In this document: in pieces, positions 4,491 through 9,023 of the stretch
Position numbering within the stretch: the stretch's first letter is position 1
Layout of the letters: every line of letters begins with the position of its first letter
Translations under genes and position numbers: made by a program
From: Clavibacter michiganensis subsp. tessellarius
GTDB taxonomy: Bacteria; Actinomycetota; Actinomycetes; Actinomycetales; Microbacteriaceae
Length of the DNA stretch: 64,000 nucleotides
Assembly (NCBI RefSeq): GCF_021922985.1
Contig: NZ_CP040788.1
Location: 2,790,001-2,854,000, forward strand
Direction of reading: 5' to 3'
The notes under the pieces: model-generated
The model's input: the letters and a program-made list of their open reading frames with translations, nothing else
Databases searched by the model: none
Told to the model about the DNA's origin: nothing

Positions 4491-5153
4491 ATGGCCGCAT
4501 CGACCCGCATCCTCCCGCCCCGCATCAGCGACCCGCGGCTCGAGGGCCTCGCCGACGGCGACCCGTCCGACCTCGACGCGCACGCGAGCTTCGAGCGGCT
4601 GCGCTTCGCCGACGCCGACCTCTCGGACGCCGACCTCGTCGACATCGGGTTCGAGGAGTGCGCGCTCGAGCGCATCCGCCTGCACGAGGCCGACCTCACG
4701 GCCGCGAGCCTCGTGGACGTGCTCGCCTCCCGCCTCGACGCGCCCGTGCTGAAGGCGCCGCGGATCCGGATGCGCGACGTGCGCCTCGAGGGCTCGCGCG
4801 TGGGATCCGCCGAGCTCTACGACGCGTCGCTCTCGTCGGTGCACATCGCCGACTGCCGCCTCGGCTTCGTGAACCTGCGCGGCTCGAAGATCACGGACCT
4901 GCTCATCACCGACTGCGCCATCGAGGAGCTGGACCTCCGCGGCACGTCCGGCATGCGCGTCGCGTTCGCGCGCACCACCATCGGCACGCTCGACCTCGCC
5001 GACTCGTCGCTCACCCACCTCGACCTCCGCGGGGCCGAGATCCACGATCTCGACACCCCGGACGGCCTCCGCGGCGCCGTGCTCGACTCCACCCAGCTCA
5101 TGGGGCTCGGCCCGGTCTTCGCGCGGCACTTCCGCGTGCGCGTGGAGGACTGA
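4491..5153 (+). CDS. Pentapeptide-repeat protein; 3' end is the target of the adjacent island
   Basis: 220 aa; ATG 4491, preceded by a GGAGGC ribosome site. Residues about 35-190 are built from five-residue repeats of A/x-[DN]-L-x-x type (F-A-D-A-D-L-S-D-A-D-L; A-D-S-S-L-T-H-L-D-L-R-G-A), predicting a right-handed quadrilateral beta-helix. Such proteins act by shape; some mimic DNA and bind gyrase, but most have no assigned role. The last 103 nt of the gene plus 3 nt after the stop are repeated exactly at 8665-8770, so insertion of the island left this copy intact. Confidence 0.85.
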   Translation: MAASTRILPPRISDPRLEGLADGDPSDLDAHASFERLRFADADLSDADLVDIGFEECALERIRLHEADLTAASLVDVLASRLDAPVLKAPRIRMRDVRLEGSRVGSAELYDASLSSVHIADCRLGFVNLRGSKITDLLITDCAIEELDLRGTSGMRVAFARTTIGTLDLADSSLTHLDLRGAEIHDLDTPDGLRGAVLDSTQLMGLGPVFARHFRVRVED

Positions 5154-5156
5154 GCG
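5051..5156 (+). repeat. Left 106-bp direct repeat (attL-like) of the island
   Basis: Bases 5051-5156 are identical, base for base, to 8665-8770 (offset 3614). The repeat covers the final 34 codons and stop codon of the pentapeptide-repeat gene plus three further bases. Identity is lost immediately outside on both sides. Perfect, same-orientation repeats at the edges of a compositionally foreign segment are what integration into a gene 3' end leaves behind. Confidence 0.9.
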
Positions 5157-5301
5157 GGAAAGGCGTGTACTTCTACCGGGCCTCTGCTTCGCGCTTTAAG
5201 GTATCGGTAGGCGCGGCGTTTGTCTGCGTGCGCGACTTTACTCTGCGCCGGGGTGGCTTCAGGAGGTCTCGCTGCTCGCTGCGGCGCGCGCCTACTGGCT
5301 T

Positions 5302-7524
5302 CTATGTGTGGCTCCCTCTTGAGCGCGTTAGTACGTTAGCCGCGACCGCCTGCTGCAAGACGTCTGGAACGGGGCTGTCCTCATCATTCACAAAAAGACG
5401 CACTTCTTTCTCTGCGCGACTTAAAGCGAGGTAGAGAAGTGAGAGGTAACGAGTTCGTTCGTTGACTGTCGCGGTAGATAATAAATCGGGAATTCCAGCG
5501 ACTATCACGTTTTCGAATTGAAGGCCAGCCAAGTATTCGGCAGGGCCGACGATGAGACCGCGGCGTCTATAGCCGAGTCCGTCCACGTCGGAACGCCCCG
5601 CTATCGTAGAAACGTGATACCTTCCCGACTTGCTAATATCGGCTGCGAGTCTACTGTAGCGGTTCCACTGGCGTTGATCCACGATAGCGAGCGCCGTCCG
5701 ACCTGAAGAATACAGATCCTGAACGGCAGTATTAATATCGAAGAGCTCCCCTTCGCTTGATGCGGAAAGCACTAATTGCGGTACGGGCCCAGCGTTCTGC
5801 GTTGATTCAACGGTCGAGAAGTCGATATCCCAGTCCTGGCCCAGATCGAGCGTGGGGAAGCGGTGGTGGACATGTTTGATTAGGTTCAAAATTTGCGGCG
5901 TGAACCGGTGTACGGTTGTAAGCTCGAAATTATCAACATCTCCCAATCCTTCGTCTCCGTTTAATGGGCCCGAATGGGTGTCATCTGCAGCAACACCAAT
6001 AAACGCCTCTGACGGAGATTGACGCGGGTCTACTGCCATGAAAATACTAGGATACTTTGAGACGTCGCGCGAAAGGTAGTGGAGAACGTGGCGCTCCAGC
6101 GGGCTGAATAGATGGAATTCGTCAACAAAAATGAGATCATAGCCCTCGCTCTTGCGAGCGCGGTTCCACGCATGCGTTTCAAGATGATTCAGCACGTCGG
6201 AAAGAACTTGGTCGGATGTCAGCAGCGAACGCGCTTCCAGGCTTTCCATAAAGCGCGAGTAAAGCGCAAATGTTACGCGCAAGTCTGCTCGGTTCAGTAA
6301 AGGCATCATCCAGCCAGCCCGAGACAGCTGTTCGTATCGGTTAATCGCGCCCGCTCCCGGAAAGATTGCGGCAGCTCCGATAACGGAGCCGAATTCGACT
6401 AGGAGATCCCAGGCAAGCGCGAGCTGGTCGTCTTCATCTTCGGAGTCGAAGCGTGCTGCAAGCGCGGGAGTGACCCCCGCTCGGTAAGTAACCCAGTCGC
6501 CTTGCACAAAAGCTTCAAGCACATCGGAGATTTCACGGAGCTGTTCTAATTTGCCGCTAAGGCTGTCGTTTCCAAGAAGATTAAAGTCGGTATCCTCGCG
6601 AATGAATTGCGGCGCTATCGACTGTGCGATTGTCAGTAGGGGAAACACATCTACTTCTTCAACTAGGCCCATGCCCATCGAAGCGAGAGAGTCCGCGACC
6701 TCCGATGCAAGGGACCAGCTATGCGTCACAATCAGCACGCGTATCTCAACACCCTTTTCGCGCGCCGAAAGGACTTCGCGTAAGGCCTTCAGAGTAAGGG
6801 CGAGCGTCTTCCCGGAACCGGCTGGTCCGCGCAGACGGATAGACTTTTCCGTGGGTGCTTCAACAAATGACCGCTGGTCGCGGCTAATCTCATCAAGCCA
6901 TTGGTCGTAAGTCCAGCCCTTTGTGACGCTCGACGCTAGGTGAGGGAGCGAAATTTCGACGTCGGGCGCTGAGTCGGCATCTTTGGCTACAAAGTGTAAG
7001 TTGGCCGAAACAAGACTCTCTTCCCAGATCGCGCTTACGTCTATGTTCGGCTTCGTGAGATTGCGCGCGTAATCAATTAATTCTTCTTTTTGATCAGTCG
7101 TTGTGGATGTCCAAAAAATTACATCCTGACGACGTCCAGGTACGACTTCAGCAATCCAGCGGCTCGCTTCTGAGTCCGAGCCAGGGATTGCAAAGAACGC
7201 AATTAAGCTGTCGTGCTTGTATTGATGCCATCCACGGGGAAGGGAAAGTGGGCCGGAAGCCCGAGCCCGCTCCGCGAATGACGCCATTCGCCCAAGTACC
7301 TCACGGCGTGAACTTGCAAGATGATCGGGGACAAACGCATCATTGTTATACTGATCTCGCATAATAATAATGCACTGCTGCTCGCTCGAATCTTGGCGAG
7401 TCAGTAAGATATCTACGCCATGGAGATGTTGCAGGTACAGTGCATCCGATGTCTCAATGGCTGCCGGGGATAAGTCTGTCGCAAGTTCCTTTAGGGCTCG
7501 TGCGCTTGTAAGCAGAGGTATCAC
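5302..7524 (-). CDS. UvrD-like superfamily 1 DNA helicase of the island
   Basis: 740 aa. SF1A helicase motifs are in order: Walker A GPAGSGKT (233-240), motif II FVDEFH (466-471), motif III AVDPRQS (497-503), motif IV-like TTVHRF (536-541), motif V GLQFENVIVAG (667-677) and motif VI LYLALSRAEKEV (697-708). Residues 1-225 are a separate N-terminal domain with no recognised signature; no PD-(D/E)xK nuclease motif was seen. The start ATG overlaps the stop of the upstream partner (ATGA), implying translational coupling. Low-GC codon use sets it apart from the host. UvrD-like helicases with small partners are common in anti-phage systems (GajB of Gabija, for example), but this pair is not one I recognise. 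Confidence 0.88.
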   Translation of the reverse strand: MIPLLTSARALKELATDLSPAAIETSDALYLQHLHGVDILLTRQDSSEQQCIIIMRDQYNNDAFVPDHLASSRREVLGRMASFAERARASGPLSLPRGWHQYKHDSLIAFFAIPGSDSEASRWIAEVVPGRRQDVIFWTSTTTDQKEELIDYARNLTKPNIDVSAIWEESLVSANLHFVAKDADSAPDVEISLPHLASSVTKGWTYDQWLDEISRDQRSFVEAPTEKSIRLRGPAGSGKTLALTLKALREVLSAREKGVEIRVLIVTHSWSLASEVADSLASMGMGLVEEVDVFPLLTIAQSIAPQFIREDTDFNLLGNDSLSGKLEQLREISDVLEAFVQGDWVTYRAGVTPALAARFDSEDEDDQLALAWDLLVEFGSVIGAAAIFPGAGAINRYEQLSRAGWMMPLLNRADLRVTFALYSRFMESLEARSLLTSDQVLSDVLNHLETHAWNRARKSEGYDLIFVDEFHLFSPLERHVLHYLSRDVSKYPSIFMAVDPRQSPSEAFIGVAADDTHSGPLNGDEGLGDVDNFELTTVHRFTPQILNLIKHVHHRFPTLDLGQDWDIDFSTVESTQNAGPVPQLVLSASSEGELFDINTAVQDLYSSGRTALAIVDQRQWNRYSRLAADISKSGRYHVSTIAGRSDVDGLGYRRRGLIVGPAEYLAGLQFENVIVAGIPDLLSTATVNERTRYLSLLYLALSRAEKEVRLFVNDEDSPVPDVLQQAVAANVLTRSRGSHT

Positions 7525-8366
7525 TTGTATCGCCCTTCAAGTTGTTGCGAGTGCGCTTTGCGCATCTCTTCATAGTCGCTCGGCATGCCAATTGACATGA
7601 ATACGAGCGCGAATTGCTGGGACATGGCATGGATGTATCGGTCGTGAAGTCGCGCGAGGCGTCGATACTTGGCTGTAGCGCGTCGTGGTCCCAAAATTAT
7701 GTCGGGCTCCTTAATTTGCTCCAAATGACGGAGATATACAAAATATCCGTCTTGCATATCAGGACTAACGGCTGAAAGAAAAATAGTATCCCCGGGGGGT
7801 GTTGAGTAGTGCGAAGTTAGCGAACTGACTATGTTTTTGGTAGCGGCCTTTGTTTGCTTGCCGCTTGGGATGTTTACGCTGGCGGCTATTAGCTCCTGCA
7901 CTGCCTCGTCTAGATCTTCGGGCGGGTTGGAAGCGGCCTGAATGGCATGTACGAGCCGGGTTGCGTCGTGTGCTGCAGTTCCGATAAGGCCAAGGGCCTC
8001 GATAATTTCCTTAGCTGGCTGCTCGAGCGGCCAGCTACGAAGGCGTTCTGCGGAGATAGAAGGGCCTTTGGCCGAGCGGATTATGCCACCAAGTGCATCG
8101 GTGCACTTACTAATGAGTCTTTCGCTTATTCGCGGAATCTGAAATTCGAGATTGTACTCGTCTTGAGTTAGCAGCGGCACGCAGGTAACTCTTCCCTGAT
8201 TTTTGCGGTTCGCGAAGTCGCAATCAGCCGTCAGTACTATGAGATGACGCTGCCATTTGTTTGCATGCTCGTCGGTGGCCTCGAGGATATCTCCTTGTCT
8301 AAGGGGGTCCATGACCGTGACATCCCGATACTCGACGAACGGCTGGTCTCCCGAGGCGGTCTGCAT
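7521..8366 (-). CDS. Unrecognised helicase partner protein, first gene of the island operon
   Basis: 281 aa, no family assigned. The N-terminus has R-Q-G-D-I-L (23-28), then L-I-V-L-T-A-D-C-D-F-A (42-52) and G-R-V-T-C-V-P-L-L (58-66); this looks like a small beta-barrel with a conserved Asp-Cys-Asp. The middle and C-terminus are helical and charged (residues about 90-180 and 230-281). No signal peptide or membrane segment. ATG 8366 is chosen because a promoter with its -10 box 6 nt upstream makes it a leaderless start; no ribosome site is present. It overlaps the helicase gene by 4 nt, so the two products probably work together. Confidence 0.75.
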   Translation of the reverse strand: MQTASGDQPFVEYRDVTVMDPLRQGDILEATDEHANKWQRHLIVLTADCDFANRKNQGRVTCVPLLTQDEYNLEFQIPRISERLISKCTDALGGIIRSAKGPSISAERLRSWPLEQPAKEIIEALGLIGTAAHDATRLVHAIQAASNPPEDLDEAVQELIAASVNIPSGKQTKAATKNIVSSLTSHYSTPPGDTIFLSAVSPDMQDGYFVYLRHLEQIKEPDIILGPRRATAKYRRLARLHDRYIHAMSQQFALVFMSIGMPSDYEEMRKAHSQQLEGRYK

Positions 8367-8372
8367 GGCTTC

Positions 8373-8403
8373 AGTATGTCCGACTCGGGCGTCGAAGTGT
8401 CAA
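8373..8403 (-). promoter_or_regulatory. Promoter of the island operon, leaderless start
   Basis: On the minus strand a perfect -35 TTGACA (8398-8403) and a -10-like CATACT (8373-8378) are separated by 19 nt. The -10 ends 6 nt before ATG 8366, so transcription would begin at or next to the start codon. The promoter lies inside the island, so the operon carries its own expression signal. Confidence 0.6.
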
Positions 8404-8664
8404 ATGTGTCCCAATTATGCTCGTGCTGAGGATCTGGCTCCCCGCTCAAGCGCGATTGGGTGGTGAAGTTTCGTGGCAATCGCGCTTCGCAATACGCGCG
8501 GCGGTACAAGGCCCGCGAACGGGGGGCTTGGCGCGGCGAAAGTGCTGCGGTAATGCAGCGACAGTCTTATTTTCGGTTCGTGTGTTCGCTAGTTGCGCTG
8601 CGCATAGACTCGCGCACTGCCACGGCGATCATCTTGTTTGAGGATTCGCCGGCGCCAAGATCTA
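8404..8664. other. Non-coding right end of the island
   Basis: About 260 bases with no convincing gene. At its right edge, 8650-8664 resembles the pentapeptide gene sequence just before the left repeat (12 of 15 positions, then a 6-nt gap), coding G-A-K-I-Y-D where the intact gene has G-A-E-I-H-D-L-D. The right boundary therefore derives from a diverged allele of the same gene. Confidence 0.5.
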
Positions 8665-8770
8665 CGACACCCCGGACGGCCTCCGCGGCGCCGTGCTCGA
8701 CTCCACCCAGCTCATGGGGCTCGGCCCGGTCTTCGCGCGGCACTTCCGCGTGCGCGTGGAGGACTGAGCG
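8665..8770 (+). repeat. Right 106-bp direct repeat (attR-like), orphan 3' end of a pentapeptide gene
   Basis: Exact copy of 5051-5156. Here the sequence is only a gene tail: reading upstream in the pentapeptide frame, homology fades by about 8650 and a stop lies a few codons earlier, so no protein is made from it. The host sequence resumes directly after 8770. Confidence 0.9.
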
Positions 8771-8852
8771 CGATCACTGCCGGGCTGCCTCGCGGCGGGC
8801 GGATCCGTCGCCTAGGCTCGCTCTCCGTCGGAATGGGAAGGGAGAGTTCCAC

Positions 8853-9023
8853 GTGCGGAGCTTCGTCACGACCGTCTCGCTGGCCGCGCTGCTCCTCTTC
8901 GCGATGGCTCTGCTCCCCGATGAGCCGGGGGTGAGGGTCACGGGTTTCGTCCTGGCCACCGTCGTCTTCGCGGTTGGGCTCCGTCTCCTCGGGGTGTTCG
9001 GCTCCGAGCCGTCGGAGGACTGA
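8853..9023 (+). CDS. Small two-helix membrane protein
   Basis: 56 aa from GTG 8853, with a GGGAGAG site 7 nt upstream. Two hydrophobic stretches, residues about 4-22 and 28-48, are separated by a short polar turn (P-D-E-P-G-V), giving a hairpin of two transmembrane helices and an acidic tail. Composition matches the host, not the island. It is the first gene after the right repeat and may be the original neighbour of the pentapeptide gene. Function unknown. Confidence 0.6.
   Translation: MRSFVTTVSLAALLLFAMALLPDEPGVRVTGFVLATVVFAVGLRLLGVFGSEPSED

Follow-up and report, generated by a model that had tools for sequence, protein, structure and literature searches.

A UvrD-like helicase and a partner of predicted MazF/CcdB toxin fold form a conserved, mobile two-gene module in Clavibacter and other bacteria

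The window analysed here is a stretch of 64,000 nucleotides (nt) of Clavibacter michiganensis subsp. tessellarius (contig NZ_CP040788.1, positions 2,790,001 to 2,854,000; host genome 3.37 Mb), and coordinates refer to it unless another locus is named. It contains two adjacent genes on the minus strand. The first to be read (7521..8366) begins with ATG and encodes a protein of 281 amino acids (aa), here called the partner, for which a MazF/CcdB toxin fold is predicted. The second (5302..7524) begins with GTG and encodes a superfamily 1A (SF1A, UvrD-like) helicase of 740 aa. The two open reading frames (ORFs) overlap by 4 nt, just as a first-pass annotation of the sequence had described in proposing a tightly coupled, candidate two-gene defence system. 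The GC content of the pair is 53%, compared with 76% in the flanks, and the insert that carries it is bounded by a direct repeat of 109 bp that is absent from that annotation. Upstream of the partner, mechanical ORF calling over 298 bp gives only ORFs of 60–90 aa. The annotation had also given the operon its own promoter, and this was not borne out. A promoter consensus scan of 5040–8780 returned two promoter-like sites, both on the plus strand, where 2.0 are expected by chance; a promoter of another type is possible.

The two genes belong together. A scan of species genomes with the partner alignment gave 16 loci, and tblastn placed the helicase directly downstream in all 16. The most divergent of these is from Caballeronia, with identities of 22% for the partner and 28% for the helicase. 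The same arrangement is found in one contig of a viral collection and in three proteobacterial plasmids. In 20 of 20 other loci a helicase start codon overlaps the partner stop codon by exactly 4 nt, although in the Undibacterium record (L070) the overlap is annotated as 7 nt; because of this recurrence the overlap is not a product of chance. Pairwise distances of partner and helicase are strongly correlated, with r = 0.98 over 19 loci and 0.94 over the 16 that remain when the proteobacteria are excluded, and none of 2000 permutations reached either value. The correlation omits L070 and the Lentzea locus (L019), where genes are broken or shortened; the Lentzea partner gene (L019, 6001–6815) has an internal stop in its assembly.

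The distribution of the module is patchy. It is present in one of 18 genomes of the genus and one of 396 of the phylum, in each case the genome of the window. In a family-level search a helicase match (E ≤ 1e-30) occurred in two of 396 genomes, and the same two carry the partner (398-genome search). Protein searches returned 245 relatives of the partner and 303 of the helicase at E ≤ 0.001. No lone homologue was seen in the sets searched, partnerless helicases having been sought in the 396 genomes of one family, and no profile of a described system matched the pair strongly. In most loci the GC content of the pair lies below that of its flanks. These results support a real two-gene module of helicase and partner that is conserved, mobile and separate from the defence systems for which profiles exist.

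The helicase matches PF00580 at E = 2.1e-7 (31.4 bits, against a cut-off of 23 bits) and carries the SF1 motifs, as expected of a UvrD-like SF1A enzyme. The annotation had recognized those motifs, and they are preserved in distant homologues: all 12 aligned helicases, including four from proteobacteria, share Q217, G236, G238, K239, T240, D468, E469, Q502 and R540. Walker A comprises residues 233–240 (6805..6828, minus strand) and the Asp–Glu of Walker B residues 468–469 (6118..6123, minus strand), both assigned from the aligned homologues. The N-terminal domain, residues 1–210 (6895..7524, minus strand), which the annotation could not place, matches nothing in Pfam at E ≤ 10, and its one match in NCBIfam (E = 0.15) falls below the threshold; inspection of the helicase alignment revealed no nuclease motif there. 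R79, W99 and R122 within it are identical in all 12 aligned helicases. The only solved structure related by sequence is HelD, a weak match (E = 6.6e-5 over 147 profile positions). The Undibacterium helicase (L070, 12831–14606) is shortened and lacks motifs V and VI.

The annotation held that the partner matches no known family. At the level of sequence this stands: PF02452 (MazF/PemK) gives no match at E ≤ 10 with the window partner, nor at E ≤ 5 with ten members of its family. At the level of fold it does not, as structure prediction gives a MazF/CcdB barrel that covers most of the toxin chain. The first three barrel strands are formed by residues 20–67 (8166..8309, minus strand), which contain Q24-G25-D26, A47-D48-C49-D50, K55 and P64. 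Strands 3 and 4 are separated by a helical insertion, residues 68–188 (7803..8165, minus strand), the least conserved part of the protein. The remaining barrel and the following helix occupy residues 189–262 (7581..7802, minus strand), with R213, R236, G260 and P262. The Asp-Cys-Asp motif that the annotation had picked out, D48-C49-D50 (8217..8225, minus strand), does not vary in any of the 137 aligned homologues, which include one proteobacterial sequence, nor in three further proteobacterial partners.

How is the module related to known systems? Gabija comprises GajA and GajB, of which GajA is an OLD/TOPRIM-type nuclease. It resembles the present pair in joining a UvrD-like helicase to a partner (as described in PMC10781630 and PMC10681800), and GajB profiles do match the helicase motor. 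The matches are weak, however, the best (E = 1.9e-4) covering only residues 213–284 and not the length of the helicase. Moreover, the partner has a different predicted fold and no OLD/TOPRIM match in Pfam or PADLOC. Hachiman, with its HamA nuclease and HamB sensor helicase, is similarly a two-gene system of small effector and helicase, and its helicase is described as sensing aberrant DNA, and as constraining and then activating the effector (PMC12278908). The window partner differs in its predicted fold, has no match to DUF1837, the domain of HamA, and gives no PADLOC hit at all, and no Hachiman model is among the hits of either protein. The annotation had likewise noted no OLD nuclease or DUF1837 features. 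The Helicase-DUF2290 system also pairs a helicase with one partner, in small hotspots of mobile-element turnover as Rousset et al. 2022 describe them (PMC9122126), but the window partner has no DUF2290 match. With the MazF/Kid/PemK and CcdB toxins the partner shares its predicted fold, a Gly-Asp where strand 1 begins and a colinear, though non-significant, profile alignment. It departs from them in its 120-residue helical insertion, its invariant A-D-C-D and its association with a helicase gene. Among open full-text titles and abstract openings we found no published description of this pair; subscription papers and most preprints fall beyond that scope.

The genes around homologous pairs provide the case for immunity. 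In Amycolatopsis (L006) the pair adjoins an RT_UG22 (DRT) reverse transcriptase (RT; E = 1.6e-91) and an RT-associated HEPN gene (E = 1e-38), both matched by PADLOC defence models. Genes for multiubiquitin, a ThiF (E1-like) protein and DUF6527 lie beside the pair in three of three proteobacterial plasmids (L067, L070 and L071). The pairs beside the clusters belong to different subfamilies. Two of these clusters are 87–99% identical, while the adjoining partners share only 22–23% identity and differ in orientation, which suggests that recruitment has taken place repeatedly. A CHAT match next to the Salinibacterium pair (L005) is barely above the cut-off (E = 2.6e-5), and four neighbours in L020 have no match in the Pfam and PADLOC scans. 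Recombinases, integrases or transposases are found near L007 (a serine recombinase), L012, L013, L016 and L068. The scan did not extend to L010 and L017, which are on short contigs. Near the Agrobacterium pair there is also a UvrD helicase of 1133 aa (L067, 2953–6351) that matches the PADLOC RT-associated helicase (E = 1.5e-72) and GajB (E = 1.9e-62). The proposal of a defence system is thus partly supported: the module is conserved, mobile and outside the profiled systems, and it is genomic context that argues for a role in defence.

We hold with moderate confidence that the pair is an accessory, horizontally moved and probably undescribed defence module in which the helicase is the sensor and the toxin-fold partner the effector. 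The two proteins would form a physical complex. The SF1A helicase would bind nucleic acid and track along it, acting as both sensor and motor, and the helical insertion of the partner may provide the helicase with a docking or control domain. The candidate active or binding site of the effector would lie around the invariant Q-G-D, D-C-D, K55, R213 and R236. An encounter with phage DNA or replication intermediates would lead the helicase to free or position the partner, which would then cut or block a target in nucleic acid or protein, and phage growth would stop, probably together with the cell. By analogy, the most likely division of labour is that of Hachiman, here with a toxin-fold effector. 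More tentatively, the pair may represent a new class of immune unit, present in actinobacteria and proteobacteria, in which a MazF/CcdB-fold toxin with a new active site (Q-G-D, D-C-D, a lysine and two arginines) and a helical control insertion is turned on by an SF1A helicase that has sensed phage nucleic acid, and which on proteobacterial plasmids lies beside a ubiquitin-like conjugation cluster, possibly acting with it. If so, a toxin fold best known from plasmid addiction has been rebuilt as a helicase-controlled effector, joining toxin–antitoxin biology to immunity of the Hachiman and Gabija kind. A protein family unnamed in the libraries searched would then have a candidate active site open to testing, and the partner would be a marker for finding such modules.

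Several observations weigh against a toxin-fold effector acting in defence. The Foldseek E-values of the partner are weak, the best being 0.054 and none below 0.001. Alignment with hhalign to PemK relatives is colinear but not significant (probability 0.1–5.6%); with the insertion removed it is 3.1%, and one of 40 shuffles scored higher. The catalytic residues of MazF, given as Arg25 and Thr48 in PMC7354611, were mapped onto the partner by profile alignment and strand order. The threonine is not kept, position 66 being leucine in 135 of 137 sequences and position 67 mixed, and the equivalent of the arginine, R40, is present in 134 of 137 rows but in none of four proteobacterial partners. RNase activity should therefore not be assumed. 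Finally, seven of the 13 actinobacterial genome loci scanned (L008, L009, L011, L014, L015, L018 and L019) show only ordinary neighbours among the one to three scanned in each.

That the MazF catalytic residues are not kept across the family also favours a rather unlikely alternative, that the helicase itself is the effector, disturbing phage replication, and that the partner is a non-enzymatic adaptor, binding nucleic acid or protein, whose toxin-like barrel loads or targets it. Of the two proteins the helicase is the larger, its motifs are kept, and CcdB, which has the same fold, is a binder and not a nuclease. Against this, the invariance across two phyla of D48, D50, K55, R213 and R236, with C49, is more like that of an active or tightly specified site than of a plain adaptor surface. 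We consider it improbable that the pair is a toxin–antitoxin system that keeps the mobile insert in place, with the helicase holding the MazF/CcdB-like partner inactive and phage defence at most secondary. The predicted fold and the tight 4-nt coupling are as such a system would have them, and HipA-family and helix-turn-helix genes occupy the same insertion site in another genome (G013, below); but an ATPase of 740 aa would make an expensive antitoxin, and some loci have neighbours of defence type. Least probable is an accessory cassette for DNA repair or replication: SF1A helicases are mostly enzymes of those processes, several copies sit among ordinary genes, and the one solved relative, HelD, is a motor that recycles RNA polymerase, but the patchy distribution, the lowered GC content, the insertion beside recombinases or transposases and the toxin-fold partner all argue otherwise.

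The module in the window is inserted at the 3′ end of a pentapeptide-repeat gene that is itself intact (4491..5153, plus strand; PF13599, E = 8.2e-13). That end forms the left copy of the direct repeat (5051..5159, plus strand), and the right copy (8665..8773, plus strand) is 99% identical to it. Among the 17 other genomes of the genus, a DNA search found near-full-length copies of the gene, at 93–96% identity, in 16; the one remaining is an assembly of 620 contigs. Five of the 16 (L051, L053, L055, L059 and L060) have an empty site, where the gene is followed directly by the DNA found to the right of the insert in the window; elsewhere different DNA follows. Two genomes carry other cargo. In G013 (L056) the second repeat copy is 1907 bp away and encloses the HipA-family gene (PF07804, E = 1.1e-44) and the helix-turn-helix gene. 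In G016 (L050) it is 1594 bp away, and the cargo is a response-regulator/LuxR-type gene and two small unmatched ORFs. Compared over 92 bp, the two repeat copies are identical in the window genome (G000) and likewise in G016, whereas those of G013 match at 85 of the 92 positions, and each is closest to the other copy of its own genome. No ORF in the three inserts is recognizable as a recombinase. Since three genomes hold different cargo between copies of one repeat, the 3′ end of the pentapeptide gene is a cargo hotspot, flanked by a repeat of 92–109 bp and with no recognized recombinase, and it poses the question of what moves inserts as small as these.

To the right of the repeat, ~240 bp of extra DNA (8774..9014) is absent from the five empty sites and is likely the remnant of an earlier insertion. 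It contains the start of a small ORF resembling a membrane protein (8853–9023) that matches part of the G016 insert at ~80% identity, and because of this resemblance the window site has probably received two insertions in tandem. In a further genome (G012, L064) the full pentapeptide gene is preceded, at a distance of ~1.9 kb, by a partial copy comprising its first 396 bp.
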